This document shows positions 7,106 through 54,805 of a stretch of 64,000 nucleotides of DNA, in pieces. The position numbers and the translations under genes are program-made. Position 1 is the first letter of the stretch. Each line of letters opens with the position of its first letter. Location of the stretch: the NCBI GenBank assembly GCA_017883205.1, contig JADGNZ010000006.1, positions 62,001 through 126,000 on the forward strand. The letters are read 5' to 3'. The notes under the pieces were generated by a model. It was not told the origin of the DNA and searched no databases. It saw only the letters and a program-made list of their open reading frames with translations. The DNA is from Thermoanaerobaculia bacterium. Lineage in GTDB: Bacteria > Acidobacteriota > Thermoanaerobaculia > Gp7-AA8.

Positions 7106-7112
7106 TGGTCTG

Positions 7113-7129: not shown

Positions 7130-7161
7130 GAATGAAACAGAGAGAGACTGAGGGACGCTGA

Positions 7162-7224
<63 letters not shown>

Positions 7225-7240
7225 TCTGAGGTGTCTCTCT

Positions 7241-13787: not shown

Positions 13788-13886
13788 TCGGGTGATGACG
13801 CGCACCGATTAGACAGTTGTCGCCACCGATTCGAGCAATCGTGGAATCAGTGCAACCTTCGCCTCTTCCCACACGAAGGATCGCGA

Positions 13887-13999
13887 CTTTCAAAATGGGG
13901 TCAGGTCTGAAGTTGAAAGTGACGAGAGTTTGAGTGGCTCAGAAACAGCGTTCGTCCGTTGTCACTTTCAACTTCAGACCTGACCCCACTTTGAAAGCG
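13887..13999. repeat. REP-like inverted repeat 1
   Basis: The left arm, 13887-13923 (ACTTTCAAAATGGGGTCAGG...), is complementary to the right arm, 13961-13998 (GTCACTTTCAACTTCAGACC...), with about 38 nt between. It has the same core as the other two blocks of this locus. Confidence 0.85.
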
Positions 14000-14003
14000 A
14001 TGG

Positions 14004-14176
14004 TTAGAGCTCGTCCTCGCTCGGCGTGGATTGGAGCTGATCATCGGTGGCGGCCACGCACGCCGCGAACTCAGGATCGGCGTTTGATCGACAGATGCTC
14101 GCTCTGATGATGTGTCCGGCTCCCTGGCTCGTGATTCCGAGGAGGCGGCCGATCTGAGCGTGGCTGGCGTTCGTAC
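14004..14176 (-). pseudogene. Duplicated 3' fragment of the RAYT gene
   Basis: This segment encodes, in the same frame, the last about 57 residues of the adjacent transposase (TNASHAQIGRLLGITSQGAG ... STPSEDEL) with about a dozen base changes. It stops matching at GCGTTCGTAC, exactly where a REP palindrome begins. It has no start codon of its own from the parent gene and is read as a truncated duplicate. The open frame extending to 14252 runs into the palindrome and is not a natural protein. Confidence 0.85.
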
Positions 14177-14178
14177 CG

Positions 14179-14258
14179 ACTTTCAAAATGGGGTCAGGTC
14201 TGAAGTTGAAAGTGACAACGTTCGTCACTTTCAACTTCAGACCTGACCCCACTCTGAA
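14179..14258. repeat. REP-like inverted repeat 2
   Basis: A compact palindrome with the left arm from GACTTTCAAAATGGGGTCAG and the right arm ending in CTGACCCCACTCTGAAAG, about 8 nt apart. It sits between the truncated and intact transposase tails. Confidence 0.85.
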
Positions 14259-14266
14259 AGCGATGG

Positions 14267-15241: not shown

Positions 15242-15314
15242 GGTGATAGGGGAGCGCAAGACAGACCGAGGACCGGTCGCGCGTGGGAGAAAGAATCATA
15301 CCGCAATTGCGGCC

Positions 15315-15426
15315 AGCTTTCAAAATGGGGTCAGGTCTGAAGTTGAAAGCGCGACTTTCAACTTCAGACCTGACCCCGTTTTGAAAGCGTCACTTTCAAC
15401 TTCAGACCTGACCCCATTTTGAAAGC
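15315..15426. repeat. REP-like inverted repeat 3 (one and a half copies)
   Basis: One forward arm (AGCTTTCAAAATGGGGTCAG...) is followed by two inverted arms (GACTTTCAACTTCAGACCTG... twice), ending at GAAAGCTGG. The outer ends GCCAGCTTTC and GAAAGCTGGC are perfect complements. It marks the upstream side of the transposase gene. Confidence 0.85.
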
Positions 15427-15665: not shown

Positions 15666-18600
15666 ATGAGCAAGTACCGCACCGCGATACGCCTTTTGTT
15701 CATCGCTGTTCTCGCACTGCCGCTCTCCGCGTTCGCTGCGACCTACGACGTGAAAGCGTTGATCGACACCGATAACAGCCGGGCCACCGGTTGTTCGGTG
15801 TCGCTACCGGACGGGACGATCGTGAACGGATTCGACACGATCCTCACGACCTCGGTGACAGTCACAGGGACCACGGGAACGGTGACCGCGGTGACGCGGC
15901 AGACTTGCGTGGGAGGCTCCTTCAGCGGCCCGGTTCCGGTCGATAACGGATGGAACGTCGGTGTCTCACCGACCGGCGATCTACTGATCGAATCGCACCT
16001 CGGCCCGAACATTCTGACGATGCACAACGTCGGCACGCCTCGCTTCGTCTTCACGACGACCTCGGGGCCGCTGTCCGATACCCTTCTCCAGCCGAGCACC
16101 ACCGGCGGGGGAGACATCATCATGCCGCATGCCGCACGCGATCGTGCGGTTGCGATGCGTGCGTTGCGCACGATCGTTCTCGATGGTAATGGAAGCGACT
16201 GGGCGGGCGATGTGCCTCTGGCCCTCGGCACCGCCAACCAGCCCGCACTCCGGTTCATCAGCGTCAACGGCTACGCCGGGGCGAGCGACTTTTACTTCAA
16301 CTTTCAGATCCACACCAATCCGGCCGCGCCCACCGCGCACGATGACGTCTACGATCTGCCCACGCTGGGCGGAACATTGTCGGTGGCGACCCTCGGCGTT
16401 CTGAACAACGACGTACCGAACGGCCAGCCGATCACGGCAGTGCTGGTCGATAACCCCCAGCACGGTGCCTTGACGCTCAACCCGAACGGCGGATTCGTCT
16501 ACTCGAACGACGGAGCGCATGTAACGCAGGATCAGTTCCACTACTTCGCCAGCGGCAATCTCCCTTCGAACATCGCCACGGTCACGATCGACATGCCGGG
16601 CTCGAAGTACGTGTTCACCAGCCCCGATCACGTGTTCTTCACGTCGGGCGTACCGGGCACCTTCACCGTGACGGTTACGGGCAAGCCGACGCCGGCGCTC
16701 TCCGAGGATGGGGCGCTGCCGTCGGGAGTCACGTTTGTGGATAACGGCGACGGAACGGCAACGCTGTCCGGCACCCCCGGCCCGGGCACGACCGGCATCT
16801 ATTCGCTGGTCTTCCATGCCGAGAAGAACAAACCGCACCAGGCCGATCAGGCATTCACGCTGTTTGTCGGCTGCCCGACCGTGACGGTTACCAATCCCGC
16901 GCAGTCGTCCTTCCCGGCCGGCGTCCCCCTGTCGGTCACGTTCACGCAGAGCGGCGGCACCTCCCCGATCACCTGGTCGGAGACCGGCGCGCTGCCGCCG
17001 GGCCTGACCTTCAACCCATCCACGGGCGTTCTGAGCGGCACGCCGGGGCAGCCCGGCACGTTCCCGATCACGGTCAAAGCCACCGACACAAACGGCTGCA
17101 ACGGCACGGGCTCTGCGTACAACCTGACCATCACCTGCCCGAGCATCACCGTGACCAACCCGGCCACGACCACCGGCACGGTGAACATCGCCTTCAGCCA
17201 GACGTTCACACAGTCGGGCGGATTCGGCGCCACGACCTTCTCGCTCAACAGCGGAACGCTGCCCACCGGCTTGACGCTGGCTTCCAACGGCACGCTCTCG
17301 GGTACGCCGACGCAGACGGGATCGTTCCCGATCGTCGTCCGGGCTACCGACTCACACGGCTGCTTCAGTAACGGTCCGACGTATACGCTCGTCATCGGCT
17401 GCCAGGTCATCACCGTGACCAACCCGGCCACCAACACCGGCACGGTGAACATCGCCTTCAGCCAGACGTTCACGGCCGGCAATGCCATCGCCCCGGTGAC
17501 GTTCACGCTCAACAGCGGCACGCTGCCGGCCGGCATCACGCTCTCGAGCGCGGGCGTCCTCTCGGGCACGCCGACGCAGACCGGTTCGTTCCCGATCACC
17601 GTCAAGGCCACCGACAAGAACGGCTGCAGCGGCATCGGCGCGACCTACACGCTGACCATCGGCTGCCAGGTCATTACGGTCAACAACCCGGCCACGAACA
17701 GCGGCACGGTCAACGTCGCCTTCAGCCAGACGTTCACGGCCGGCAATGCCATCGCACCGGTGGCGTTCACTCTCAACAGCGGCACGCTGCCGGCGGGCAT
17801 CACCCTCGCCGCCAACGGCACGCTGTCCGGCACGCCGACGCAGACGGGCTCGTTCCCGATTACCGTCAAGGCTACCGACGCAAACGGCTGCACCGGCATC
17901 GGCGGGACCTACACGCTGACCATCGGCTGCCAGGTGATCACGGTCAACAACCCGGCCACGAACACGGGCACGGTCAACGTCGCCTTCAGCCAGACCTTCA
18001 CCGCGAGCAACGCAATCGGAGCAAAGACCTTCACCACGGCCAGCACGCTGCCGACAGGCATCACGCTGTCGACGGGCGGCGTTCTGTCCGGTACGCCGAC
18101 GCAGAGCGGCTCGTTCCCGATCGTTGTGCACGTCGTCGACGCCAACGGCTGCGCCGGCAACAGCGCGACCTACACGCTGACCATCAACTGTCAGGTGATC
18201 ACGGTCAACAACCCCGTGACCAATACTGGCACGGTCAACGTCGCCTTCAGCCAGACCTTCACCGCCAGCAACACCATCGGCGGGACGACGTTCACGACGG
18301 CCAGCACGCTGCCAACGGGCATCACGCTGTCGACCGGCGGCGTCCTGTCCGGCACGCCGACGCAGAGCGGCTCGTTCCCGATCGTGGTCCATGTGGTCGA
18401 CGCCAACGGCTGCGCCGGCAACGGCGCCACGTACACCCTGACCATCGGTTGCCAGGTCATCACGGTCACCAACCCGGGCACGAACACGGGCACCGTGAAC
18501 ACGGTATTCGGCCAGACCTTCACGGCCGGCAACACCATCGGCGCGGTGACGTTCTCGCTCAACAGCGGAACGCTGCCGGCCGGCCTCACGCTCTCGACGG

Positions 18601-21600
18601 GTGGTGTTCTCTCGGGCACGCCGACACAGACCGGTTCATTCCCGATCACGGTCAAGGCTACCGACGCGAACGGCTGCCCCGGGATCGGCGCGACCTACAC
18701 GCTCACCATCGGCTGCCAGGTCATCTCGGTTACAAACCCGTCGACAACCACCGGTACGGTCAACACGGCCTTCAGCCAGACCTTCACCGCCGGCAACACG
18801 GTGGGGACGGTGACGTTCACGACCGCCAGCACGCTTCCGGCTGGTCTCTCGCTCTCGACTGCCGGTGTTCTCTCGGGCACGCCGACGCAGACCGGCTCGT
18901 TCCCGATCGTAGTGACGGCCACCGACGGCAACGGCTGCTCGGGCTCGGGCTCGACGTACACCCTGGTCATCGGCTGCCAGACCATCACCGTCACCAAGCC
19001 GGCCAACAACACCGGCACCGTCAGCGCACCGTTCAGCGAGACCTTCACCTCGGGCAACACCATCGGCGCGGTGACGTACACGCTCAATAGCGGCACGCTT
19101 CCCGCGGGCCTTTCGCTCTCGACCGGCGGCATCCTCGGCGGCACGCCGACCCAGGCCGGCTCGTTCCCGATCACGGTCAAGGCTACCGACGCCAACGGCT
19201 GCTTCGGGATCAGCGCGACGTACACGATCAACATCGCCTGCCAGGTCATCACCGTGAATAACCCGGCCACCACGAGCAGCCCGGCCGGCACGCCTCTCTC
19301 CATTAACTTCACCCAGAGTGGCGCCATCGGCACAGCGACGTTCACGACATCGAGCACGCTTCCGACCGGTTTGACCCTCGACCCGAATGGAACGCTGCAC
19401 GGCACGCCGACCCAGGGCGGCCCGTTCCCGATCGTGGTCACGGTCACCGACTCGAACGGCTGCACCGGCACGAACCCCTCGTACACCCTGACGCTGACCT
19501 GTCCGACGATCACCGTCACCAACCCGGCCACGACCACCGGCACGGTGAACGTCGCCTTCAGCCAGACGTTCGGTCAATCAGGTGGAGTCGGGGCGACCAC
19601 GTTCTCGATCTTCAGCGGCACGCTGCCCACGGGCCTTTCGCTCTCGTCAGCGGGCCTGCTCTCCGGGACGCCGACCCAGACGGGCTCGTTCCCGCTGGTC
19701 ATCCGGGCCACCGACTCGAACGGCTGCACGGGCGACGGGGCGACCTACACGCTGGTCATCAGTTGCCAGGTCATCTCGGTGACCAACCCGGCCACGACCA
19801 CCGGCACGGTCAACACCCCCTTCAGCCAGACGTTCACCGCCGGCAACGCCATCGTCCCGGTGACGTTCAGCACGGCGTCGACGCTGCCTGCGGGTCTCTC
19901 ACTCTCGACAGGCGGAGTGCTGTCCGGTACGCCAACCCAGATCGGCTCGTTCCCGATCGTCGTCACCGCCACGGACGCCAACAGCTGCTCCGGAACGGGT
20001 GCGACGTACACGCTGGTGATCGGCTGCCAGACCATCTCGGTGACCAACCCGGTCAACAACGCCGGTACGGTGAGCGCGCCGTTCAGCGAGACCTTCACGG
20101 CCGGCAACACCATCGGCACGGTGACGTTCTCGCTCAATAGCGGCACGCTGCCGGCTGGTCTCTTGCTTTCGGCTGGCGGCGTTCTCTCCGGCACGCCGAC
20201 GCAGTCCGGTTCGTTCCCGATCACGGTCAAGGCTACGGACGCCAACGGCTGCTCCGGTGTTGGCGCGACGTATACGATCACCATCGCTTGCCAGACCATC
20301 ACCGTGACGAACCCCGCCAACAACACGGGCACAGTGAACGCGCCGTTCAGCGAGACCTTCACCTCGGGGAACACGATCGGCACGGTGACGTACACACTCA
20401 ATAGCGGTTCGCTCCCCGCGGGCCTCTCGCTCTCGACCGGCGGCCTCCTCGGCGGCACGCCGACCCAGGCCGGCTCGTTCCCGATCACCGTCAGAGCGAC
20501 TGACTCGAACGGTTGCTTCGGCGTGAGCGCGACCTACACGATCAGCATCGCCTGCCAGGTCATCACGGTGACCAACCCGGCCAACGCCACCGGCCCGGCC
20601 GGTACGCCGTTCAGCGAGACCTTCTCGCAGAGCGGCGCGGTCGGCTCCCCCTCGTTCACCCTCGGCAGCGGCACGCTGCCCACCGGCCTGACGCTCCACG
20701 CCGCCACGGGCATCCTCGACGGCACGCCGAGCCAGGGCGGCACGTTCCCGATCACGGTCACAGTTACCGACTCGAACGGCTGCACCGGCACCGGCCCGAC
20801 CTACACCCTCATCATCACCTGCCCGGTCATCACCGTCACGAATCCGGGCGTCAGCACCGGCACCGCCGGCACGGCCTTCAGCCAGACCTTCACGCAGTCG
20901 GGCGGTGTCGGCACGATCACCTGGTCGATCGCCAGCGGCACGCTGCCGACGATGGTCGATCCCAGCACGGCCAGCTCGTCCAACGGCCAGCTCCGTCCGC
21001 GGGCGGAGGTCGCGCCTACCGGACTGACGCTCAACTCCGCGACCGGCGTCCTCTCCGGTACCCCACACCAGGTGGGTACGTTCCCCATCGTCGTCCGCGC
21101 AACCGACGCCAACGGCTGCACCGGCGACGGCACGACCTACAACCTGGTCATCTCGTGCAACTCCATCAGCGTTACGAACCCCGGCGTGAACACCGGCACC
21201 GTCGACGCATCCTTCAGCCAGACCTTCACTGCCAGCGGCAACATCGGCGCGCTCAGCTGGAGCGAGACCGGCGCGCTTCCGTCCGGCATCACGCTCTCCG
21301 CGAGCGGCGTCCTCTCCGGTACGCCTACCGAGCCCGGGTCGTTCCCGATCACCGTCAAAGCTACGGACACGAACGGCTGCTTCGGTACCTCGAGCTACAC
21401 CCTGACGATCAACTGCCAGACCATCACCGTCACCAAACCGGTCGTCACGACGGGCACGGTCGACACGCCGTTCAGCCAGACCTTCACGCAGAGCGGCGTC
21501 GGCACGCACACGCCGGCGACGTTCACGCTCAACACCGGCTCGCTGCCGTCGGGTCTCACGCTCTCGACCGCGGGCGTGCTCTCCGGTACGCCTGGTCAGC

Positions 21601-24600
21601 CGGGCAGCTTCCCGATCACAGTCAAAGTCACGGACGTCAATGGGTGCTTCGGCGTCAGCACGACCTACACCCTCGTCATCGCTTGTCAGACCATCACCGT
21701 CACGAACCCGGCCACGACCACCGGCACCGTTGGCTCAGCGTTCAGCCAGACCTTCACACAGAGTGGGGTAGGCACACACACGCCGGCGACATTCACCACC
21801 GCCAGCACGCTCCCAACCGGCTTCTCGCTGTCGACCGCGGGCGTGTTGTCCGGCACGACCAACCAGCACGGCACATTCCCGATCGTCGTCACCGTAACGG
21901 ACGTGAACGGCTGTACGGGGACCGGCTCGACGTACAACCTGGTCATCAACTGCCAGACCATCACCGTCACCAACCCCGGCGTCAACACGGGCACGGTTGG
22001 CACGGTGTTCAGTCAGAACTTCACTCAGGGCGGATCGATTGGTGGATCGACGTTCTCCACCGCCAGCACGCTGCCGACGGGTCTCTCGCTCAGCGCCGCC
22101 GGCCTGCTCTCGGGCACGCCTCTCCAATCCGGCTCGTTCCCGATCGTCGTCACGGTCACCGACGGCAACGGCTGCACCGGCACGGGCGCGACGTACACGC
22201 TGGTCATCGCCTGCAACGTCATCAACGTGACGAATCCAGCCACGACGACCGGCACGGTCGACGCAGCGTTCAGCCAGACGTTCACGCAGACGGGCGGCAA
22301 CGGCACGATCACCTGGTCCAAGACCGGAGCGATTCCGGCCGGCATGACGTTCCACACCGCCACCGGCGTTCTCGATGGCCCGCCATCGGTTCCCGGAAGC
22401 TTCCCGTTCACGGTCACGGCAACGGACTCGAACGGCTGCCAGGGCACCGGCTCGACGTACACGCTGGTCATCGCCTGCCAGACCATTACGGTCAATCCTC
22501 CGGGCGTGGCCACCGGCACGGTCGACACGCCTTTCAGCCAGAACTTCACGCAGTCGGGCGTCGGCACGCACACGCCGGCCACCTTCACTCTCAACAGCGG
22601 CTCGCTGCCGTCGGGTCTCTCGCTCTCGACAGCCGGCGTTCTCTCCGGCACTCCGAGTGTCCCGGGCAGTTTCCCGATCACCGTTAAGGTCACCGACGCT
22701 AACGGTTGCACCGGCATCAGCGCGACCTACACGCTGGTCATCAACTGCCAGACCATTACCGTCACGAATCCGACGACGAGCACCGTGGTCTTCAACGGCG
22801 GATTCACGCCGGCGGGCAACTTCACCTTCACGCAGACCGGCGTCGGTACGCACACGCCGGCGGTCTTCACTCTCAACAGCGGCACGCTGCCGAATGGTGT
22901 CACGCTCTCTTCGGCGGGTGTGCTTTCCGGCCCGGCTACGCAGACCGGCACCTTCCCGATCACGGTCAAGGTGACGGACGCGAACGGCTGCACCGGCATC
23001 GGCGCGACGTACAACCTCGCCATCACCCCGAGCATCGGCGGCGACTCGTACAGCAACCTGGTCGACAACACCCAGGCGGTCGTCACGGGCGGCGCCACCG
23101 CAAGCCCGGGAACGCCGTTCGTCACGCTCACCGGCTCTGTCCTGGCGAATGACCTCCCGGCAGGCGGCGTCAGCGTTACAGCGGGCACGTTCCCCACGTC
23201 GGCGGGCGGCAGCGTGACCATCCTCTCCGACGGCACGTTTATCTATACGCCGAAGGCCAATCCGGGAGCCGCCGCGACCACCACAGATTCGTTCACCTAC
23301 ACCGGCACCAGCAACACCGGCGCTACGGCCACACCGACGAGCGCAACCGGTACGGTCACCCTGACGCTCGCCGGCCGCGTCTGGTACGTGAAGAACAACG
23401 GCGGCGGAACGAACGGTCAGTCGCAGTCGCCGTTCACCACGCTCGCCGCGGCCGCCGCGGCATCGACCGCCAACGACATCATCTTCGTCTACAACGGCGA
23501 CGGCTCGAACAGCGGCCAGAACGCCGGCATCGCGCTCAAGAACGGGCAGCAGCTCCTCGGCGAGATCAACGGTCTGACGGTCAACGCCCAGACGCTCGTG
23601 ACGGCCGGCGGCAGCAGGCCGACCATCGGCAACGCCGGCGGCGCCGGCGTCACCGTCGCGGCCAGCACGGCCAACGGTGACCGTACCGGCATCTTCATCA
23701 AGGGGCTTTCCATTGCAGGAACCACGAACGCCGTCGATATCAGCTCCGCCAACGCCCAGACGCTCACGGCAACGGTCGACAACGTCAACATCACGGGCGC
23801 GACGGCCAACAACGGCATCAAGATCGCCGCTGCGGGCACTCTGACCTCCACCGTGACCGTGCAGAACAGCACGGTAGTCTCAGCTGGTCAGAACGGCATC
23901 GACGCGCAGCAGACGACGGCCGGCAACCTGGTGCTCAGCATCAACAACAACAACATCACCGCCACGGGGACGGGCATCAACGTGGTTGGCACTGGCAGCA
24001 CCAGCACCACGATCACCAACTTCGCCAGCAACACCGTCACTGGAATCACCGGTGGCAGTGGTATCACCGTCACGGGCGCGACCTTCGACGCGACGCCTGG
24101 CGGCACCTTCCAGACCGTCTCCGGAGGGACCACGGCCATCGGCTCGGCAGGCAATGGTGTCGGCACGAACGGTATGGTGCTGACCAACGTGGCCGGTGAT
24201 CTGAGCTTCACCGACCTCGACATCGTCACCAGCAGCGGCACGGGACTCTTCGCCAGCGGTACGACCCCCTACACCGGTTCGGCCGGCTTCCAGATTACGA
24301 TCACCAGCAGCGGCGCCGGCTCGGTCGACGCTACCAACGGCCCGGCCGTTGACCTGAATACGGTCACCGCGAACCTGCCGTGGGGCACGATCAAGAGCAC
24401 CAACAGCGCCTCGACCGGTGTTTCTCTCGTTACCGTGCCAGGCACCTTCACGACCACCGGCGCATCGAGCTCGATCACGAACGCCACCAGCACGGACTTC
24501 AACATCAGCGGAAGCAATGCCACCGTGACCTATGACGGCACGATTACCGATGCCTCCGGCCGCGCGGTTGCCATCGCCAGCACGACAGGCGGAACGAAGA

Positions 24601-28156: not shown

Positions 28157-31100
28157 ATGGGTCGATCTGGTCGCATCGTGCTGTCTCTCTTCGTGGTTAC
28201 TTTGTTCGCGCTCGCATTTCCTGCGCTCGCCGCGAACGTCACCGTCAACGGCACCACGAACTTCAGTTCGCTCGACGGATCCGCTGACGATCAGGACCAT
28301 CTGGTCAACGGAACGTTCACCGTCAACGGAGATCTGATCGTCAACGGCACGATCAACTGCAACGACAACACGCCGGGCAACGGCGCGGCCTGTTCGATGC
28401 GCTTCGCAGTCACCGGTAACGTGACCATGAGCGCCGGCAGCGGAATGTTTGCCGAGAACCGGCAGGGCAGCGGGTCCGGAGCAAATATCACGATCAACGC
28501 CGGCGGCAGCGTTGTCCTCCATGGTCCGGCGTCCACCTTTGCCGGTGCTCGGATCGGTACCTCGGCCACCAGTTCAGCCAGCGGCTCGGGCGGCACTGTG
28601 ACGATCACGAGCGGCGGAGCGACCACGCTCGAATCGGGCACCGTAATCAACACCGCCAGCAAAGGCCGTGATGCCGGAGACATCCTGCTCACATCCGGCG
28701 GAAGCATCACCGTTTCCGGTCTGCTCGCCGCGGGCCCGAGCGACACGGTTCTTTCAACGCGGCAGACGGGTGCCATCCTCGACGGCGGCGTGGCCCACCA
28801 AAACGGCGGCGAGATCCGCGTGCAATCGACTTCCGTGCTCGCGCCGGCAGTCCTGATCACCTCCACCGCGACGATCGCATCGCAGGGCCAGGACGTTGCC
28901 GGACCGGTCACGATCGAAGGTTGCGGCGTCATCATCAAGGGGCTTGTTGCCTCGCTCCTGGAGGGCGATGCAGCCACGCGCGTTGTGGTCCGCTCGGGCA
29001 AAGGCATAACTATCGATGGCAGCGATCTTGGCATTAACGGAGCCGGCACCCGGCTCGGCCACGTGCGCGCGGATGCCATCAGCGGCAGCGCCGGCACCAA
29101 GCGCGCCGACCTCTTCGCTGCCGATGCGATTCAGGTGACCGGTCCTGATTCGTCATTGAGCGCGCTGTATGCGGTCAGCAGTGTTCCCGGCAGCGGCGAC
29201 AAGAGCGTAGCCGGTGGAACGATCCGCGCGATCTCTCTGCGCGATACCGCCACGGTCTCGGGAAGAGCTTTCCTGACCGGCCGTAATGACGACAACAACG
29301 TGGGCGGCACGATCAGCATCGCCACGAAGGGGACTGCCACACTCGACCACGCCTTCCTCGAAGCCGTCGGCGACTTCTCCAAACTGAAAAAGAATGCGGC
29401 CGGCGGAAACATCGCCGTCCGTTCCTACGGCGGCAATGTGAGCTGGACCCTCGGCATGGGCGACGTCCGTCCGGTTGGTTCCGGCGCATCTGGCGTCGCC
29501 GCGCAGGGAACGATCGCGCTGACGGCATGCGGGACCGTGGTCACCTCGGGCACGAGCTTCCCGACCAACGGTCCAGCGGCCGGCGTCTTCCCGACCATCA
29601 CCACAGGCTCGTGTTCGCCATCAGCTCCGGCGCTGCCCGCGGGTGAGCCCGCGCTGCAGATCTGCTGCAACGTCATCACCGTCACCAATCCGGCGGTGAG
29701 CAGCGGCCCGGCCGGTGCCCCCTTCAGCCAGACCTTTACGCAGACCGGTGCCATCGGCACGGCCACGTTCACGATCGCCACTGGCACGCTGCCGGCCGGA
29801 CTGACTCTTGCCACCGGCGTTCTCTCCGGCACACCCACCGTTACCGGCAGCTTCCCGATCACCGTCATGGTCACCGACTCCCAAGGCTGCACCGGCGTCG
29901 GACCGACCTATCCGCTGCAGATCACCTGTCCGACGATTACCGTCACGAATCCTGCGGTGAACAGCGGCGTCGCCGGTTCGCCATTCAGCGTCACCTTCAC
30001 GCAAAGCGGGGGAGTGGGGACGACGACGTTCTCGATCGCAGGCGGCACGTTGCCGGCCGGTCTCACGCTGGCGTCAAATGGCGTGCTGTCCGGTACGCCG
30101 ACGCATACAGGCAGCTTCCCGATCACGGTCAAGGCCACGGATTCGAACGGTTGCAGCGGCATCGGACCGACGTACTCGCTGACGATCACCTGTCAGACCA
30201 TCACCGTCACGAACCCCGCTGTGTCATCCGGCGTCGCGGGCAGCGCGTTCAGCCAGACCTTCACGCAGAGCGGCGGCATCGGCACGACGACGTTCTCGCT
30301 CGCAAGCGGAGCTCTGCCAACCGGACTCACGCTCGCCGCGAACGGCGTGCTCTCGGGGACACCGACACAGACCGGCAGCTTCCCGATCACAGTCAAGGCT
30401 ACCGACGCGAACGGATGCACCGGCACCGGCGCGACCTACACATTAATCATTGCCTGCCAGACCATCACCGTCACCAACCCGGCGGTGCATAGCGGCGTCG
30501 CGGGCACAGCGTTCAGCCAGACCTTTACGCAAAGCGGCGGCATCGGCACGACCACGTTCTCGCTCGCCAGCGGATCCCTGCCGGCCGGCCTCACGCTCGC
30601 CGCGAGCGGAACGCTCTCCGGAACGCCGACGCAGACCGGCTCGTTCACGATCACGGTCAAAGCCACCGACGCGAACGGTTGCACAGGTACCGGTGCGAAC
30701 TACACGCTGACGATCGCATGTCAGACGATCACCGTCAACAACCCGGCCGTCAGCACCGGCGTGGCCGGCAGCCCGTTCAGTCAGACTTTCACGCAAAGCG
30801 GCGGCATCGGCACGACGACGTTCACGCTCGCCAGCGGCACGCTGCCGTCGGGACTGACTCTCGCCACAAACGGAACACTCTCCGGTACGCCGACCGTCGT
30901 CGGCACGTTCCCGATCACCGTAAAGGTCACCGACTCGAACGGATGCACGGGCACCGGCGCAACCTACAACCTCGTCATCAGCTGTCAGACGATCACCGTC
31001 ACCCCGCCGGCAGTGAACACAGGCGTGGCCGGCTCGCCGTTCAGCCAGACGTTCACGCAGAGTGGCGCGATTGGAGCGGCGACCTTCTCGCTTACCGCGG

Positions 31101-34100
31101 GCGCTCTTCCCACCGGACTGACGCTGGCGTCGAACGGCGTCCTCTCCGGCACGCCACTGCAGACCGGTACGTTTGCGATCACAGTCACGGTCACCGACTC
31201 GAATGGCTGCACCGGCTCGGCGAATTACACGCTGACCATCACCTGCCAGACGATCACCGTCACCAACCCGGCGGTGAGCAGCGGTGTAGCCGGTGCCGCA
31301 TTCAGCCAGACCTTCACACAGAGCGGCGCGATCGGCAGCGCCACGTTCTCGCTCGTCAGCGGATCGCTCCCGGCGGGCCTTAGCCTCTCCGCTTCCGGCG
31401 TCCTCTCCGGCACGCCGACGCAGACAGGATCGTTCCCGATCACCGTCGCCGTGACCGACGCGAATGGCTGCAGCGGCGTCGGACCCACGTATAACCTCAC
31501 CATCGCCTGCCAGACCATCAGCGTCACGAATCCGTCGGTAAACGTCGGCGTCGCCGGCCAGGCGTTCAGCCAGTCCTTCACGCAGAGCGGCGCCATCGGC
31601 ACGGCGACCTTCACGCTTGCCAGCGGCACGCTGCCGTCTGGTCTCAGCCTTTCGGCAAGCGGCGTCCTTGCGGGTGTTCCGCTGCAGACGGGAACCTTCC
31701 CGATTACGGTCACCGTCACCGATTCGAACGGCTGCACGGGCACGAGCCCGGTCTACAACCTGATCATTAATTGTCAGACGATCACTGTCACGCCGCCGTC
31801 GAACCTGACGGGCACTGTGGGCGTTGCGTACAGTGAGCAGTTCTCGCAGAGCGGCGGCATAGGCGCGGCGACCTTCACTGAGACCGGCACGCTTCCGACG
31901 GCCATGAGCTTCGCGGCGGATGGCACGCTCTCCGGCACGCCGACGCAGAGCGGCGCGTTTCCGATCACCGTCACCGCCACCGATTCCAACGGTTGCACCG
32001 GCTCGGTCAGCGTGACGCTCACAATCGGTTGCCAGACCATCACGGTTACGAATCCTGCCGTGTCAAGCGGTACCGCCGGCACGCCCTTCAGCCAGACCTT
32101 CACGCAGAGTGGCGCGAACGGCACTGCGACCTTCTCGCTCGCCAGCGGGACGTTGCCATCCGGCCTGACGCTCTCGACATCGGGAGTGCTCTCGGGCACG
32201 CCGATGCAGACGGGCTCGTTCCCGATCACCGTCAAGGTCACCGACGCAAACGGCTGCACAGGCACCGGCCCGACGTACAACCTGGTCATCGCCTGCCAGA
32301 CCATCACGGTCACGAATCCGGCCACGTCGACCGGAACGGTCGGTACGCCATTCAGCCAGACCTTCACGCAGAGCGGCGCGATCGGAACGGCAACGTTCTC
32401 GACCTCGAGCGCGCTGCCGACGGGTCTGACGCTGTCCGCGAGCGGCGTCCTTTCCGGTACTCCCACCCAGACCGGCAGCTTCCCGATCGTCGTCACGGTT
32501 ACCGACAGCAACGGCTGCACGGGTACTGGCGCGACCTACACGCTGGTCATCGCCTGCCAGCCCATCACCGTCAACAATCCGTCTACGAACACGGGCACGG
32601 TCGACGCGCCGTTCAGCGCCGGCTTCACGCAGAGCGGCGCAATCGGCACGGCCACGTTCTCCACATCGAGCACGCTTCCGTCGGGGCTGACCCTATCCTC
32701 CAGCGGTGTTCTCTCCGGCACCCCGCAGGTTCCAGGCACCTTCCCGATCACCGTCACCGTGACCGACTCGAACGGCTGCACCGGAACCAGCGCAACCTAT
32801 ACGCTGACCATCTCGTGCCAGACCATCACGGTCACGAATCCGAGCTCCAACAGCGGCTCGTACAACACGCCGCTCAGCGGCAGCTTCACCTTCACCCAGA
32901 GCGGCGTGGGAACACACACGCCGGCCGTCTTCTCAATCAACAGCGGTTCGCTGCCATCGGGCGTCTCGCTGTCTTCGGGTGGCGTGCTCTCCGGCACCCC
33001 GACCCAGACGGGCGTGTTCTCCATCACCATCAAGGTCACCGACGCCAACGGCTGCTCGGGAATCGGCAGCACCTACACGCTGACGATCGCCCCGAACGCG
33101 ACGAACAAGTCGTACGTCGACGTCGGCAACACGCAGCTCGACGGCGGACTCGCTGCTCCGGCGACTCCGACCGTGATCGCGGCCGCGCTCTCGAGCGGCG
33201 ACTCTTCCGACGTGGCAATCACGTACGCTTTGGTCGTTCCGCCAATCCACGGAACGCTCACGATTTTCAACGCAAGTGGAACCTTCCTCTACACGCCGAA
33301 CGTCGGCAACACGGCAACCGACTCGTTCACCTACACCGCCACATCGAACGGGGTGAGCGTGACGCGCTCCGCGACGATCACGTTCACGAGCAGGGTCTGG
33401 TACGTCGATAACGCCACCGCCTCCGGTACGAACGACGGCCGTTCGAACACGCCGTTCAAGACGATGACCGCCGTCGGTGGCGCGGGCACAGCGTCGGGCG
33501 ACTTCATCTATGTATCGAAGGGCTCGGGTCCGACGACAGGCGCCTACACGATGCTGGCCAGCCAGCAGCTCATCGGTGCGGGTGCGACGCTCAATGTCGG
33601 ATCGGGCGTTCTCGTGGTCGCCGGCAACGCCGCGAACACGCCCACGCTCAGCGGTTCGCTGACGCTGGCGAACAACGTCACGGTCAACGGAATCGACATG
33701 AGCACGGGAACGTCGCCAGCGATCATCGGCACCGCCGTGACCGGCATCAACGTCACCGCGCGAAACATCATCACCACCACAGGCACCGCGATTTCCATCA
33801 GCACCGGCAGCAGCGGAACGATGACGTTCACGAGTATCAGCGCCGGCACTTCGGCGGCCGGGCCGTTGAACGCCATCTCGATCGCCAACTACAACGGATC
33901 ATTCACGGTGACGGGAGACGGCGGCGCGACCTCCAACGGTTCGGGCGGAACGATTCAGAAGACCACCAGCCACTCCGTTAGCCTCAGCGCCATTGTCGGC
34001 ACCGTGAACCTCAACTACATGAACATCACCAACAGCGGCGCGAACGGGATCAACTCGGCGATGATCAGCAACATCACCGTCAATCACTGCAACATCTCCG

Positions 34101-45866: not shown

Positions 45867-46454
45867 GTGTTCGATCCCAATATCCTAAAGATGCCAACGG
45901 CCGCGCCGGCCACCCCCGCAGGCGAAGAGACTCCTCTGACCCTGCCGGTGCTGGAACCGCCACAGGAAGACATCGGTGAGCTTTACGTGCGGCACCGGAC
46001 GCTGCTGATGCACATCGGCAGTCGGAAGTTCCGTATCGCGGAGTCGGAAGCGGAAGCTCTCATCCAGGAAGTGTTCCTCTCGTTCATGACCACAACCACG
46101 AAGATCTCGAACGTGAGATCGTGGCTGGTCGCGGCGATGTGCAACGCCAGCAGGCACTACTGGCGCGTGCAGGGGCGCACGGAGAGCCTGCCGGAGAATT
46201 TCGCCGATCACACCGATCCGATCTCCGACGACATCGCCGAGGAGATCGCCAGAGTGATCACGATGCAGCAGGCTCTCGACTATCTGCAGCCTCGCTGCCG
46301 CGACACGCTCTATCTCCACTACTACCAGGGCCTCTCGGCGAATGAGGTGGCGCGGGCGCAGGATACGACGTCGCGCTACGCCGAGAAACTGATTCACAAC
46401 TGTTTGAAGCGAGTCCGCGAGATCTACTTCAGCATCACGGCGGTGAAACGATGA
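45867..46454 (+). CDS. ECF-type sigma factor (second)
   Basis: A 195-aa protein starting at a GTG (FDPNILKMP...); an ATG at 45891 is an alternative. Region 2 is about 40-100 (IGELYVRHRTLLMHIGSRKF ... ISNVRSWLVAAMCNASRHYW) and region 4 about 130-185 (LQPRCRDTLYLHYYQGLSAN ... TTSRYAEKLIHNCLKRV). Its stop codon overlaps the next start (ATGATG), so it is coupled to the zinc-finger/TPR regulator. Divergent from the M20 peptidase across a 217-bp gap. Confidence 0.9.
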   Translation: MFDPNILKMPTAAPATPAGEETPLTLPVLEPPQEDIGELYVRHRTLLMHIGSRKFRIAESEAEALIQEVFLSFMTTTTKISNVRSWLVAAMCNASRHYWRVQGRTESLPENFADHTDPISDDIAEEIARVITMQQALDYLQPRCRDTLYLHYYQGLSANEVARAQDTTSRYAEKLIHNCLKRVREIYFSITAVKR

Positions 46455-47809
46455 TGATCGAGCAACACTACGACGAAGAAGTGCTTGCCGGGTTTCTCGA
46501 CGAACCGATCGATGCCGCGGCGCGTGACAAGCATCTCGACACCTGCGCGCTCTGCAAACGTACGCTCCAGTCGATGCGCGACACGACTGTCCTCTTGAAA
46601 AAACCGGCGATCTGGGACCGGCAGAGATTCTCGACCACGGCAAAACCGGAGACGCTGGCTTTCCTGCGAAACGTGCAGCAGACAATGGCGGACGAGAGCG
46701 CGGCGGCGCAGGTGCATGTCGCCCTCTTGCTCTCGGGCGATCGCGAATCGTGGGCCGCGAAGCTGGGCGCACACCCGGAGTGGCGAACAGCAGGGCTGGT
46801 CAGGAAGCTGATCGCAGAAACGGATCGAGCCATCGACTTGATGCCGCCGGACGCGGTCGAGATCACACGGTTGGCCTGCGATATCGCGGATGGCCTGCCG
46901 CTTTCGGACGGTATTGTCCGCCTTCGCGGGAACGCGTGGTTCGAGCGTGGGTACGCTTTGCAATACACCGGTGCGTTTAAGGAGGCGCTAAAGGCGCTCG
47001 CGAATGCAGAGTCGCAGTTCACCCAACTTGCCGTCGCCGATCACGAAATCGCACGCCTCAATCTCGTGCAGGCGTTGGTCTACCGAGCAATGGATCGCAT
47101 CGAGGACGCTCTGCCGGCCATCACCTCAGCGGCAGCTGTCTTTCAGGATTTTGGGGATGTGGAGCGCTGCCACGCTGCCAAGCTTTTCATGGGCGCCACC
47201 CTCTACCGTGGCTGCCGTTTCCGCGAAGCCCTCACCGTTCATATGGAGCTCGCGAGCGAGGAGGCCGTTGCCCCACGATGGCGCGCCGCCGCACTGCAGA
47301 ACGCTGCGATCTGCTACCGGGAAGTTGGAGAGATTGACGCCGCGATCGAGTGCTTTGTGAAAGCGATCAATGCTTTCGAAGTGGCCGGCATGATGTCGGC
47401 TCGTGCTAAAACGCGCTGGACGCTCGCAAGGATTCTCGTCGAGCGGCAGCAACACGAATCGGCGCTCACAATGTTCGCCGAGCTTCACGATGAATTCGAA
47501 CAGCTCGGCATGTCCAATGAGGTCGCCCTTGTGGCTCTCGACATTGCCGAGTCGCTTCTAGCCATGGGAAAACACGACGGCGTTGCTGCCGCTTGCAGGC
47601 AGGCCATCGCGTATTTCGAGAAGATGCAGCTCACTTCGTCCGAAGCCGCGCTCATCGCCGTTACGTACTTGTGTGAAGCTGCCGTCGCCGGAAACGTAAC
47701 CCGCACCCTCGTTTCGGATCTTCGCGGTGCCTTCCTTTCCGCAACTGATCGCCCCCGTTCGGATACTCAGGCCCGCAAATCTTTGCGGCCACCGACGGAT
47801 CGTGGGTAG
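46451..47809 (+). CDS. Zinc-finger/TPR regulator coupled to the second ECF sigma factor
   Basis: A 452-aa protein. The N-terminus has the anti-sigma zinc motif HLDTCALC (H-x3-C-x2-C, about 29-36). There is no membrane span. Residues about 160-420 are tandem TPR-like helices (WFERGYALQYTGAFKEALKA, AAICYREVGEIDAAIECFVK, ARILVERQQHESALTMFAEL), so it is a soluble protein-binding scaffold. It overlaps the sigma gene by 4 bp. The likely role is to hold the sigma factor and release it on binding a cytoplasmic partner. Confidence 0.85.
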   Translation: MMIEQHYDEEVLAGFLDEPIDAAARDKHLDTCALCKRTLQSMRDTTVLLKKPAIWDRQRFSTTAKPETLAFLRNVQQTMADESAAAQVHVALLLSGDRESWAAKLGAHPEWRTAGLVRKLIAETDRAIDLMPPDAVEITRLACDIADGLPLSDGIVRLRGNAWFERGYALQYTGAFKEALKALANAESQFTQLAVADHEIARLNLVQALVYRAMDRIEDALPAITSAAAVFQDFGDVERCHAAKLFMGATLYRGCRFREALTVHMELASEEAVAPRWRAAALQNAAICYREVGEIDAAIECFVKAINAFEVAGMMSARAKTRWTLARILVERQQHESALTMFAELHDEFEQLGMSNEVALVALDIAESLLAMGKHDGVAAACRQAIAYFEKMQLTSSEAALIAVTYLCEAAVAGNVTRTLVSDLRGAFLSATDRPRSDTQARKSLRPPTDRG

Positions 47810-47885
47810 GGAAAAGTCCCGCCCAGACACTCCTCTGCAGGGCGCCCTCCAAATCAACCGAGCTTTCAAAGCTCACGGAGGGTAT

Positions 47886-48074
47886 ATGTCTACACGATCG
47901 AGGATTCGAGTTGCTACCGTTGTTCTTTTTCTTGCACTGACAACAAGCGTCGCATCGGCTGCGCCCCAGCGCGACGGCGGTTCGGACGGCTTCTTTGGCA
48001 GAATCAGCCGCATCGTCAAGCAGATCGGCAGGATACTGCTTCCGCTCGACGAGCCCGTGTTACCCAAACCCTGA
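47886..48074 (+). CDS. Small secreted peptide (62 aa)
   Basis: The ATG lies 6 nt after GGAGGG, a strong ribosome binding site. A basic start and hydrophobic core (RIRVATVVLFLALTTSVASA) form a signal peptide, leaving a mature peptide of about 37 residues (PQRDGGSDGFFGRISRIVKQ then IGRILLPLDEPVLPKP) with an amphipathic, glycine/isoleucine-rich helix. It follows the sigma/TPR pair by 76 bp on the same strand. It might be an exported signalling or membrane-active peptide controlled by that system; function unknown. Confidence 0.7.
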   Translation: MSTRSRIRVATVVLFLALTTSVASAAPQRDGGSDGFFGRISRIVKQIGRILLPLDEPVLPKP

Positions 48075-48119
48075 CCGAGGTTCTTCTCTCCCGAGCAACC
48101 CGCGTCCCGATGCTCGTGC

Positions 48120-48223
48120 ATGACGGTTGAATTGCCGGGTTGGGACGTAATTAACGTTTCGTGGCCGGACGGCGGAAGTAATCTCGTTCACCGTCCACCC
48201 GGAACGATTGCTCAGTTTGCTCG
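48120..48223 (+). pseudogene. Degenerate copy A of the ABC ATPase 5' end
   Basis: This stretch aligns base by base with the first about 110 bp of the ABC ATPase gene at 48463: ATG plus CGGTTGAATTG against CGGTCGTATTG, shared GGACGGCGGA/GGACGGA, CTCGTTCACCGTCC, ACGATT and CTCGGC. Small indels break the frame. It is a decayed partial duplicate, directly followed by copy B. Confidence 0.75.
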
Positions 48224-48405
48224 GCTGTCGGCGGTCTGTAGGTTCGAGAAATAGCTGAAGCCGGTTGGTGTCGTGCGGGCGGTGAACGGGCTCTCGTTCA
48301 CCGCTCGACACGGCATGACTAACGGTTTCCCTGGCCGCAACGACGCTGCTGGGCGCCTCCAAAGAACGACCGCGCTCCGATGATCCATCATTCCCCAAGC
48401 CCTGA
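48224..48405 (+). pseudogene. Degenerate copy B of the ABC ATPase 5' end
   Basis: This aligns with about the first 170 bp of the ABC ATPase gene: GTAGGTTCG/GTCGGTTCG, CGTGCGGGCGGTG identical, CTCGTTCACCG identical, GGCCGCAACG identical, then AAAG-ACGACC and GATGATC, fading near 48405. Frameshifts and a stop (TAG at 48251) make it non-coding. Together with copy A it fills the gap before the intact gene; nothing else is seen in 48075-48462. Confidence 0.8.
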
Positions 48406-48462
48406 GCGCCCATCCCCCTCCCGCCGTACAATACGCCGGCCTGCAAGCCCGGGAGTGTGCTC

Positions 48463-49374
48463 ATGTCGGTCGTATTGTCGGTTCGGGATGTAGTGAAGAC
48501 TTTTGGCGCCGTGCGGGCGGTGGACGGAGTCTCGTTCACCGTCCGGCGCGGGACGATTACCGGTTTACTCGGCCGCAACGGTGCGGGAAAGACGACCACG
48601 ATCCGGATGATCACCGGCGTCTTTTTCCCCGATGCCGGAACGATCGAGTGGCTCGGCAGCGAGCGCGATGCCCGCGACCGCATCGGCTACCTTCCGGAAG
48701 AGCGCGGTCTCTACCGGCAGATGAAGGTCAAGGAGCACCTGCTCTTTCTCGCTGAGATCAAAGGTTGCCGCGGTGCTGCGGTCGCGCAATCGGCGGAGCG
48801 CTGGCTCAAGCGCTTTGAGCTTTGGGACAAGCGCGACGCCAAGGTCGAGACGCTGTCGAAGGGCAACCAGCAAAAGGTTCAGCTCATCGGGACTCTTCTG
48901 CACGATCCCGATCTCATCATTCTCGACGAGCCTCAATCGGGTCTCGATCCGGTCAACATGCTTCTGGTCCGCAACCTTCTTCGCGAGTTGAAAGACGAGG
49001 GCCGGACGATCCTTCTCTCCACGCACATGATGGCTGAGGCGGAGAGGATGGCGGACGAGATCATCCTGGTTCACAAGGGGAAGGTCGTTCTCTCCGGCGC
49101 GATTGACGCGGTGCGCAATTCCTTCGGGAAGAACACCCTGCACATCGACTACGAAGGGGATGGCACTTTTCTCGAACAGCTTCCTGAGGTCAAACGCGCC
49201 ATGATCGTCAATAACGCGGCGGAGCTGAGTCTCAACGAAGGTGCCGACCCGCAGCGCGTACTCGAAGCCACCGTCGGCCGTCTCCGGGTACGCAAGTTCG
49301 AAATCGCCTCGCCATCGCTTGAAGAGATATTCATCGAACAGGTCGGCGCCGAGACCATGGAGGCCATTCAGTGA
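48463..49374 (+). CDS. ABC transporter ATP-binding protein (NatA-like)
   Basis: About 303 aa. The start is the ATG giving MSVVLSVRDVVKTFGAVRAV, with GGGAG 8 nt upstream; a GTG two codons earlier is less likely. Walker A is GRNGAGKTTT (about 37-46), the signature motif is LSKGNQQKVQ (about 130-139), Walker B is LIILDEPQSGLDP (about 150-162) and the switch histidine is in STHMMAEAERM. The C-terminal part (about 220-303) is the DUF4162-type extension of this subfamily. It drives the adjacent permease; the substrate is not known. Its stop overlaps the permease start (GTGA). Two degenerate copies of its 5' end lie just upstream. Confidence 0.94.
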   Translation: MSVVLSVRDVVKTFGAVRAVDGVSFTVRRGTITGLLGRNGAGKTTTIRMITGVFFPDAGTIEWLGSERDARDRIGYLPEERGLYRQMKVKEHLLFLAEIKGCRGAAVAQSAERWLKRFELWDKRDAKVETLSKGNQQKVQLIGTLLHDPDLIILDEPQSGLDPVNMLLVRNLLRELKDEGRTILLSTHMMAEAERMADEIILVHKGKVVLSGAIDAVRNSFGKNTLHIDYEGDGTFLEQLPEVKRAMIVNNAAELSLNEGADPQRVLEATVGRLRVRKFEIASPSLEEIFIEQVGAETMEAIQ

Positions 49375-50699
49375 ACAAGATGTTCGCGGTCATCAAGCGC
49401 GAGTACCTCCAGGCCGTCCGGCGGAAGATGTTCATGTTCATGACGGTCTTCTTCCCCGTCCTCATCGCCGCGCTTTTCATCCTTCCGGGACTCCTGATCT
49501 CCAGAGGTCTCGGCGACAAGAAAGTCGCCGTCATCGACGGTACGGGCGAGCTTCGTGGTGCGTTCTTGCATCGCCTCACGCCCGAAGTTCCCGACCCGAA
49601 AAAGGCGCTGGCTGGCGGTGGCCGGCGTGCCGAGCTCCCGCAGTCGCTGGACGTCGAGTATGCCGACGCCCGCGGGCAACGTAATCTGGACGCCGCCGCC
49701 AAACCCTATCTCGACCGTCTCAATATCGACAAGAGTTCCGACGGCCGCCTGGACGCAGTCCTCCTCATTCCCGCGAATGCTTTCGCCGGCAACGACGCGA
49801 AGATGACCTTCTACAGCCGCTCCTCGACCGATCTGTTCTCCCAGGAACGACTCGGATCGATCGCCAACCGCGCCATCCAGCGTCAGCGTCTGACCGCGCG
49901 GGGGATCGATCCAACTGTTGTTGACACGCTCACGCGCGAAGTTCCTGTGAGCAGCGTGCAGCTCTCCAAGAGCGGCGAACAAAAGAAGGGAGGCGAGGCC
50001 AATTTCATCATCGGTTTCATCTTCGCGTTTCTTCTGATCATTCCGTCCTTTATCTACGGCCTCGAGACCATGCGCGGCATCGTTCAGGAAAAGAGCGAGC
50101 GCATCGTCGAAGTGCTCGTCTCGTCGATGTCCCCGCGAGAGCTTCTGACCGGCAAGATCCTCGGCGTGGCGGGCGTCGGGCTCACGCAGGTTGGGGTCTG
50201 GCTCCTGGTCATCGCCGCGGCAGGGACGTTCGGCGCGGCCAGCGCGATGGCGGCCGGTTTCAACGTCACGCAGTTCCTCCGGCCGATGGTATTCGTCTAC
50301 TTCGGTCTCTTCTTCATTCTCGGCTACCTCACATTTGTCTGCGTTTACGCCATCGCCGGCGCCGCCTGCAATACCGATAGGGAAGCCCAGCAGCTCGTGG
50401 CGCCCATCCAGATGGTGATGATGCTTCCCTGGTTCGTGATGTTTGCAATCATCACCAACCCCGATTCCACCTTCGCCGTCGCGCTCTCGCTCATGCCGGT
50501 CTACGGCCCGATGACGATGTTCGTGCGGATACTCGTCTCCGAGCCGCCCGTCTGGCACGTGATCTTTTCGATCGCCGTCTCCATCGTTACGATCATGGTC
50601 TTCTTCTACGTGACGGCGAAGATCTTCCGGATCGGCATCCTCTCCTACGGCAAGCGGCCGACGATTCCGGAGCTGTGGCGATGGATGAAAGTAGCTTGA
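49371..50699 (+). CDS. ABC-2 type permease (NatB-like)
   Basis: A 442-aa protein starting at GTG inside the ATPase stop. One membrane helix at about 20-42 (MFMFMTVFFPVLIAALFILP) is followed by a large extracytoplasmic domain (about 45-210), then about five helices (FIIGFIFAFLLIIPSFIYGL, VGLTQVGVWLLVIAAAGTFG, FVYFGLFFILGYLTFVCVYA, VMMLPWFVMFAIITN, IFSIAVSIVTIMVFFYVTA). The motif EKSERIVEVLVSSMSPRELL is characteristic of the family exporting Na+, peptides or lipids. It works with the preceding ATPase. Confidence 0.93.
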   Translation: MNKMFAVIKREYLQAVRRKMFMFMTVFFPVLIAALFILPGLLISRGLGDKKVAVIDGTGELRGAFLHRLTPEVPDPKKALAGGGRRAELPQSLDVEYADARGQRNLDAAAKPYLDRLNIDKSSDGRLDAVLLIPANAFAGNDAKMTFYSRSSTDLFSQERLGSIANRAIQRQRLTARGIDPTVVDTLTREVPVSSVQLSKSGEQKKGGEANFIIGFIFAFLLIIPSFIYGLETMRGIVQEKSERIVEVLVSSMSPRELLTGKILGVAGVGLTQVGVWLLVIAAAGTFGAASAMAAGFNVTQFLRPMVFVYFGLFFILGYLTFVCVYAIAGAACNTDREAQQLVAPIQMVMMLPWFVMFAIITNPDSTFAVALSLMPVYGPMTMFVRILVSEPPVWHVIFSIAVSIVTIMVFFYVTAKIFRIGILSYGKRPTIPELWRWMKVA

Positions 50700-52615: not shown

Positions 52616-54805
52616 ATGACATCCCTTGCTGAAGCGACACCACGCAGTGCCTCCGCGTTTCGGATCGAGCGCGACGGCGATCTGGCCATCCTCTGGTTCG
52701 ATCTGCCAGGCGAGAAGGTCAACAAGTTTTCCAGCGCTGTCATGACCGAGTTCGCCGGGGTGGTCGACGAACTGGAGCGGGATGGCGACATCAAGCGCAT
52801 CATCGTCGCATCGGGCAAGCCGTCGATCTTCATTGCCGGCGCCGACGTCACCGAGTTCTCGAAAGCGACATCAGCCGAACAGGCACGCGAGTACACCCGC
52901 TTCGGCCAGCAGACCATCCATCGATTCTCGAAGCTTCCTCAAGTCACGGTAGCCGCCATCAATGGCGCTGCGCTCGGTGGCGGCTGCGAGCTGGCTCTCG
53001 CTTGCGATTATCGCGTCATGTCCGACAGTCCGAAGGCGCAGATCGGGCTCCCGGAAACGAAGCTCGGCATTTATCCGGCGTGGGGTGGCGTGACGCGTCT
53101 TCCGCGGCTCATCGGGTTGCCGGCGGCGCTCGACATCATCCTCAATGGCAAGACGCTCGACGGCAAGAGGGCAAAGAAGATCGGCCTCGTCGATGAAGTC
53201 GTTCCCGCGGCAATTCTGCTCGACATCGCCCGCCAATTCGCTGCGAAACCCAAGCGCAAAGGAAGCGGTCGGACCAAGTTCTACATCGAAGGCAACCCTC
53301 TGGCACGTAGCATCATTTTCAGCAAGGCCCGCAAGGCGGTTCTGTCGCAAACGCATGGTCACTATCCTGCACCGCTCAAAGCGATCGACGTGATGGAGTA
53401 CGGCATGTCCGCCGGCATCGAGCGCGGGTTAGCTCGCGAGGTCGATGAGGTCGTGCCTCTCATCGTAGGTTCGACAAGTGGATCAACAAGTGGATCAACA
53501 AGTGGATCAACAAACGGCGCGGCCGGAGGTTCCGACGTTGCGCAGAATCTGATCCGTCTCTTCTTCCTCATGGAAGATTCGAAGAAGGAACGGATCGCCG
53601 CGGCTCCGATCGAAGTCCGCGATGCCGGCGTCCTTGGCGCGGGCATCATGGGAGGCGGCATCGCCCAGCTCATCGCCGACAAGACCGACGCCTCCGTCCG
53701 GATGCGCGACATCAACTGGAAAGCGATCGCCGGCGGGATGAAGGCGGCCGCGAAGATCTGGAAGAAGAAGGTCGATCGCCGCCGCATGACGCGCGTGGAA
53801 ATGCAGCGCAAGCTGGCCCGCATCACGTCGACGATCGACTGGAGCGGCTTCGAGCGCTGCGACCTCGTCATCGAAGCGGTCGTCGAGAATGTCGAGATCA
53901 AGCGGCAGGTCCTCCGCGAGTTCGAGGCGATCGCCAAACCGGGCGCCATCTTCGCCACGAACACATCGACGATTCCGATCACGGACATCGCCGCTCAGGC
54001 CGCGAAGCCCGAGAACGTTGCCGGGATGCATTTTTTCAACCCGGTGGACCGCATGCCGCTGGTCGAGGTCATTCGCGGCGCGAAAACGTCGGACGTGGCC
54101 ATGGCCACGGTCGCCAACTTCGCCCGCAAGCTCGGCAAGACCGTCGTCTATTGCAACGATGGACCCGGTTTCGTCGTCAATCGCATCCTCGGGCCCTACA
54201 TGAATGAGGCCGGCTTTCTCCTCGAGGAAGGGAACACGATCGAGTCGCTCGACAAGGCGATGGTCGACTTCGGCATGCCGATGGGACCGATGGCGCTGCT
54301 GGATGAGGTCGGAATCGACGTCGCCGCAAAGGTGGCGAAGATCCTGAGTGCGGCCTTTGGCGAACGCATGGAGCCATCGCACGTCGTCGACGCGCTTTAC
54401 ACGGACGGACGATTCGGCAAGAAAAACGGCAAAGGTCTTTATCTCTATGAAGCCGGCAAGAGGCTCGGCCCCGACGCGTCGGTCTACAAGCTGCTTGGCA
54501 TCCGGAGTACGCATCCCGCCGATGCGACTGCGGTCGTCGAGCGAATGATCTTCGCGATGGTCAACGAAGCGGCGATGATTCTCGACGAGAAGATCGTGGC
54601 CTCGCCGGCCGAGCTCGACCTGGCCATGATCATGGGCACCGGCTTCCCGCCCTTCCGCGGAGGTTTGCTGCGCTACGCCGACAAACTTGGTTTGCCATAC
54701 ATCCTGGCGCGCCTCGACGACCTTGCCCAGAAACATGGCAAGCGATTCCTGGCCACTGCTGCGTTGCGGAAGCTGGCCGAGCGCGATGGGAAGTTCTATC
54801 GGTGA
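52616..54805 (+). CDS. fadJ: Bifunctional enoyl-CoA hydratase / 3-hydroxyacyl-CoA dehydrogenase
   Basis: A 729-aa fatty-acid oxidation alpha subunit. The N-terminal crotonase domain (about 10-260) has both catalytic glutamates, in NGAALGGGCELALACDYRV and GLPETKLGIYPAWGG. A Rossmann fold begins at VLGAGIMGGGIAQLIADK (about 342-359), followed by TSTIPITDIA and GMHFFNPVDRMPLVEVI with the catalytic His, and the C-terminal domain containing YCNDGPGFVVNRIL. Between the halves is a linker (about 284-305) made of four GSTS-like units coded by a 12-bp tandem repeat (GGATCAACAAGT). It belongs to the FadB/FadJ type; which of the two cannot be settled. A thiolase partner is not in the window. Confidence 0.93.
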   Translation: MTSLAEATPRSASAFRIERDGDLAILWFDLPGEKVNKFSSAVMTEFAGVVDELERDGDIKRIIVASGKPSIFIAGADVTEFSKATSAEQAREYTRFGQQTIHRFSKLPQVTVAAINGAALGGGCELALACDYRVMSDSPKAQIGLPETKLGIYPAWGGVTRLPRLIGLPAALDIILNGKTLDGKRAKKIGLVDEVVPAAILLDIARQFAAKPKRKGSGRTKFYIEGNPLARSIIFSKARKAVLSQTHGHYPAPLKAIDVMEYGMSAGIERGLAREVDEVVPLIVGSTSGSTSGSTSGSTNGAAGGSDVAQNLIRLFFLMEDSKKERIAAAPIEVRDAGVLGAGIMGGGIAQLIADKTDASVRMRDINWKAIAGGMKAAAKIWKKKVDRRRMTRVEMQRKLARITSTIDWSGFERCDLVIEAVVENVEIKRQVLREFEAIAKPGAIFATNTSTIPITDIAAQAAKPENVAGMHFFNPVDRMPLVEVIRGAKTSDVAMATVANFARKLGKTVVYCNDGPGFVVNRILGPYMNEAGFLLEEGNTIESLDKAMVDFGMPMGPMALLDEVGIDVAAKVAKILSAAFGERMEPSHVVDALYTDGRFGKKNGKGLYLYEAGKRLGPDASVYKLLGIRSTHPADATAVVERMIFAMVNEAAMILDEKIVASPAELDLAMIMGTGFPPFRGGLLRYADKLGLPYILARLDDLAQKHGKRFLATAALRKLAERDGKFYR
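53470..53518. repeat. 12-bp tandem repeat encoding a GSTS linker
   Basis: Copies of GGATCAACAAGT (the first and last are slightly changed) within the fadJ-like gene, at the junction of its hydratase and dehydrogenase halves. The translated stretch is (SGST)-type. It is a length-variable linker candidate. Confidence 0.85.

Follow-up and report, generated by a model that had tools for sequence, protein, structure and literature searches.

Partial tandem duplication, with later decay of the copies as pseudogenes, is a general process in bacteria. A literature search returned nothing specific to a locus like the one described here, where such fragments precede the ATPase gene of an exporter operon. 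The operon itself is of a familiar type, the ABC-2 exporters composed of a DrrA-like ATPase and an ABC2_membrane_3 permease. By Pfam, the intact ATPase gene and its partner both belong to this type, and nothing about them is unusual. Upstream of the ATPase gene lie two degenerate partial copies of its start, copy A and copy B (Table 1). In comparisons with these copies, the start of the intact gene is labeled C. Both copies are ordinary pseudogene fragments, the leftovers of local duplication. They very probably go back to nested tandem partial duplications at the junction between a small ORF and the ATPase gene, the inner pieces of which have been decaying without visible constraint. All coordinates refer to the window, that is, the whole stretch of 64,000 nucleotides that was analyzed, unless another locus is named.

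Table 1. Features of the junction between the small ORF and the ATPase gene, with positions in the window.
Feature	Position	Strand	Remarks
Small ORF, 62 aa, signal-peptide-like start	47886-48074	+	Intact; relatives have an orthologue in this place
First copy of the duplicated small-ORF tail	48043-48074	+	End of the intact 62-aa small ORF
Copy A	48043-48236	+	Runs from the small-ORF tail through the intergenic stretch into the ATPase gene (its first ~119 bp); decayed, frameshifted
Decayed counterpart (AGCAAC) of the TACAAT motif	48094-48099	+	In copy A, from the alignment
Copy B	48237 to ~48392	+	Decayed copy of the ATPase gene from about base +14 to +155; its end merges with the second small-ORF tail
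Hairpin, 22 pairs, one bulge	48268-48316	+	Lies in copy B; derives from the coding sequence of the ATPase
Second small-ORF tail and intergenic stretch serving the intact ATPase gene	48373-48462	+	Alignable to the intergenic regions of G001 and G002
Promoter-like (-10-like) motif of the intact ATPase gene, TACAATACGCC	48427-48437	+	Conserved in the family
Intact ABC ATPase gene	48463-49374	+	Pfam PF00005 (ABC_tran), E 4.5e-30; PF13732 (DrrA1-3_C), E 1.4e-16
ABC-2 type permease, partner of the ATPase	49371-50699	+	Pfam PF12698, E 1.6e-49

Genomic Context and Promoter-Like Motif

The small ORF, for which a Pfam search gave no match, is grouped as a secreted-peptide ORF with a sigma-70-like gene and a TPR protein gene (45867-48074). 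It is conserved in the family, together with a leader 5' of the ORF (GGGTAGGGA ... CACTCC ... GGGCGCCCT). This leader is perhaps a promoter read by the adjacent sigma-70-like factor.

Before the ATPase gene, CGTACAAT is found in 11 of the 16 loci examined, and the version in G001 is TTTACAATACGCC. In most family members the motif precedes the ATG by about 30 bp or more, and GTACAAT is conserved in relatives. The form just 5' of the ATPase gene in the window, CGTACAATACGCC (48427-48437), is conserved in most of the family and has a single occurrence in the window. Within it, the TACAAT motif is intact (48427-48432), beside the functional gene and downstream of both copies, and the version in copy A has been lost. 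A scan of 47780-48520 for sigma-70 promoters and terminators found no full promoter, and its single terminator-like site was no better than chance.

Extent and Homology of the Copies

The short matches by which the first-pass annotation had recognized the repeats are all present, with CTCGTTCACCG at 48183, 48293, and 48531, CGTGCGGGCGGTG at 48272 and 48510, and GGCCGCAACG at 48333 and 48571. Moreover, both copies score far above shuffled sequence in the alignment check that it had proposed, and the two degenerate partial copies are real. In local alignments, copy A (48043-48235) is identical to 48373-48582 at 141 of 189 positions (74.6%), with a score of 109 vs. a maximum of 49 among 2000 dinucleotide-preserving shuffles. 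For copy B (48237-48408), the match to 48476-48642 comprises 126 identities in 159 positions (79.2%), and its score of 133 compares with a maximum of 44 among the same number of shuffles. The ungapped core of copy B, at 48256-48342, has 78% identity.

The repeat had been described as limited to the first 110-170 bp of the ATPase gene. While the gene start is indeed copied, copy A extends further to the left. Its left end consists of the last codons of the 62-aa ORF, and it includes the whole intergenic stretch before the ATG. Because copy A also carries the small-ORF tail and the intergenic stretch, the copied unit spanned the gene junction, and in the alignment of copy A this unit is contiguous and crosses functional boundaries beyond the coding part. 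Copy B starts inside the gene start, exactly at the end of copy A, and its join with the second small-ORF tail is blurred near 48373-48392. The spacing is 110 bp from A to B and 238 bp from B to C, and the sum is the spacing of 348 bp from A to C. Suggestive short matches occur at both joins (e.g., CGGT near 48228-48232), in junction sequence that is heavily decayed.

The intact ATPase gene at 48463-49374 is the source of both copies. Besides the locus itself, the rest of the genome contains only one match, of 58 bp, to the ATPase part. A mobile or dispersed repeat element was considered and rejected, as further copies are absent elsewhere in the genome.

Proposed Duplication History

Gene order is shared with the same-genus relatives G001 and G002, in both of which the small ORF leads to the ATPase gene via a short intergenic stretch. 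Relative to them, the locus contains about 300-330 bp of extra DNA. In G001, the matches to 47800-48074 and to 48378-49359 overlap by 28 bp, and there is therefore no room for extra DNA. When the insert alone was searched in 18 family genomes, the only matches outside the source genome were to the part derived from the ATPase start. Copies A and B were found in none of the family genomes searched, including at other family loci. The nearest named matches are from uncultured Acidobacteria, with 68 and 66% protein identity, and they place the genome in the Acidobacteriota. Of the two explanations offered by the first-pass annotation, repeated partial duplication is borne out, since neither same-genus relative has the extra DNA at the syntenic locus and the alignments place the copies end to end, in the pattern of nested tandem duplicates.

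The proposed history would begin with a tandem duplication of ~238 bp. The duplicated segment would have reached from the end of the small ORF across the intergenic stretch and ~155 bp into the ATPase gene. The inner copy of the gene start was useless, and a tandem duplication of ~110 bp would then have been nested within it. Both outer copies stayed whole, with the small ORF on the left and the full ATPase gene and its promoter-like motif on the right, while the inner pieces have been decaying under no visible constraint. The 238-bp event is placed first because a 110-bp insertion into the sole copy of the gene would have broken it. This order is presumably correct, and slippage or microhomology may have been the cause of both events. 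Read in this way, the locus preserves the clear fossil traces of two local duplications, one nested in the other, and offers a small example of the growth of intergenic DNA in bacteria.

Decay, Constraint, and Age

The reading frame has been lost through frameshifts in both copies. Differences from C are spread evenly over the three codon positions, with 10/6/8 in copy A and 7/9/10 in copy B. The differences of the orthologues from C are almost all at third positions, 1/1/14 for G002 and 1/1/18 for G001. As the frameshifts and the even spread over codon positions demonstrate, coding constraint after duplication is absent in both copies. For these counts and for the tree described below, the copies were placed by pairwise projections; the MAFFT placement of copy A was partly misaligned. 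Two overlapping ORFs, one that starts at the former ATG of copy A (48120) and stops near 48254 and one on the minus strand (48060-48683), were dismissed, neither having gene-like signs.

The raw differences from C amount to 24 of 112 positions for A and 26 of 136 for B, or 19-25% depending on the aligned stretch. At four-fold sites of the ATPase gene, G000 and G002 differ by 0.53 per site after correction, or ~0.27 per lineage. The raw divergence would suit unconstrained DNA of about the age of the G000-G002 split or slightly less. Neutral decay that has been ongoing since about the diversification of the genus would fit as well, although this dating is loose.

Copy A is roughly equidistant from G002 and C. 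A maximum likelihood tree was built for the gene-start block. Its cluster of A, B, and C is separate from all orthologues (bootstrap 87), and within it the branches to A and B are long and that to C is almost absent. A tree that instead joins C to G002 and leaves A and B outside the pair is worse by 8.2 log units (AU p 0.059). A somewhat older origin of the copies, in which C and G002 would group to the exclusion of A and B, is disfavored, with no tree formally rejected.

Alternative Explanations

It is improbable that the copies were retained as regulatory DNA or RNA, for instance with the hairpin in copy B acting as a cis-acting element or as the end of the small-ORF mRNA. The same low likelihood attaches to the proposal that copy B, while its frame decayed, kept and slightly perfected this hairpin because it acts upstream of the operon as an element in RNA or DNA. 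The hairpin is very stable, at -37.8 kcal/mol (z -7.0), and the form in the parent gene is weaker, at -34.7 (z -4.1). Moreover, when neutral change from the parent gene was simulated, the energy of copy B was reached in just 0.6-1.2% of runs, and in 7 of the 11 genomes tested the parent coding hairpin (48504-48555, about codons 14-31 of the ATPase) is more stable than almost every synonymous recoding (P below 0.03). This coding hairpin is not conserved throughout the family. The helix also shows no clear covariation across the family, the number of pairs changed on both sides being near that of shuffles (287 of 500 were as high). Pair retention in copy B gave small P values only when the structure of copy B itself was used, and it was not significant with the parental structures of C (P 0.064), G002 (0.24), or G001 (0.051). 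Because the tests with parental structures were not significant and the family-wide pair counts were near those of shuffles, retention of the hairpin is not claimed. Chance suffices to account for it, as does template-switch correction of a quasi-palindrome. Other features of the locus also argue against regulation. The stem is not followed by a T run, the intact promoter-like motif stands downstream of both copies while the version in copy A is lost, substitutions are even over codon positions, and the copies are absent from all relatives searched. Retention as regulatory DNA, the second explanation in the first-pass annotation, is thus unsupported, and the copies presumably have no function. 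Were the hairpin reading correct, it would suggest a route from coding segment to regulatory element, although this reading is not favored by the evidence.

Two further origins have to be weighed against nested partial duplication. The copied region is one that many ABC ATPases have conserved. Weak similarity by itself could therefore reflect paralogy, and the copies could in principle be the remains of separate older ABC ATPase genes, from an ancient tandem array or acquired. This is highly improbable. Copy A also matches the intergenic stretch of the ATPase gene itself and the small-ORF tail, which refutes this origin in the main. In addition, A and B show a closer relationship to C and its orthologues within the genus than to the rest of the family, and the relatives have no such array. 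The chance that the copies are an assembly artefact or a coincidental similarity is negligible. The genome is a multi-contig draft, but no support for an artefact was found, and a divergence of 20-25% between copies is not a product of misassembly. Similarity by chance is contradicted by the alignment scores, which far exceed those of shuffles.

Other Repeats

Repeats of other kinds were also observed. Direct and inverted repeats that contain TTTCAAAATGGGGTCAGGTCTGAAGTTGAAAG, and that resemble transposase-associated palindromes, occur at 13884-14439 and 15314-15426 and in L138 at 6820-7881, and a different repeat in L205 is carried by a Y1-transposase-like gene. Two long arrays of a ~264-bp repeat, at 16856-23106 and 29650-32842, have a spacing that is a multiple of three and likely represent repeat-rich surface proteins. 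Within an enoyl-CoA hydratase/dehydrogenase-like gene, a perfect 12-bp repeat (ACAAGTGGATCA, 53474-53513) encodes a GSTS-type linker, and its copy number may be variable.

Comparison with Known Duplications

The first-pass annotation had called the arrangement unusual. This is true to a mild degree, as one comparable decayed gene-end fragment is present in a partly inspected 1.8 Mb of the same genome. It came to light in a census of local duplicates, defined as nearby direct repeats that join a gene end to non-coding DNA, which covered 1.81 Mb (about 28% of the genome) and 1495 ORF models. The census flagged 24 pairs, including the A/B locus. Among the nine other pairs that were inspected, eight were low-complexity, non-coding, or mobile-element repeats and one, in L210, was a gene-end remnant. 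Because only these nine were inspected, two decayed gene-end duplicates per 1.8 Mb is a lower bound.

The L210 remnant (6195-6303 / 7424-7529) is a decayed copy, ~74% identical, of the final ~106 bp of a gene and ends at the same stop codon. Like copies A and B, it is a truncated, decayed copy of the end of a neighboring gene. Unlike them, it copies the 3' end, in this case of a Pfam RGP gene, and it lies one gene away instead of in tandem.

Overall, the A/B locus resembles other cases of partial tandem duplication and pseudogene decay in that the copies are direct and tandem, the outer copies are intact, the inner ones are truncated and decaying, and the duplicated DNA is absent from orthologous loci. 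It differs from them in that two apparently nested events took place at one gene junction and in that their products are old and much decayed.
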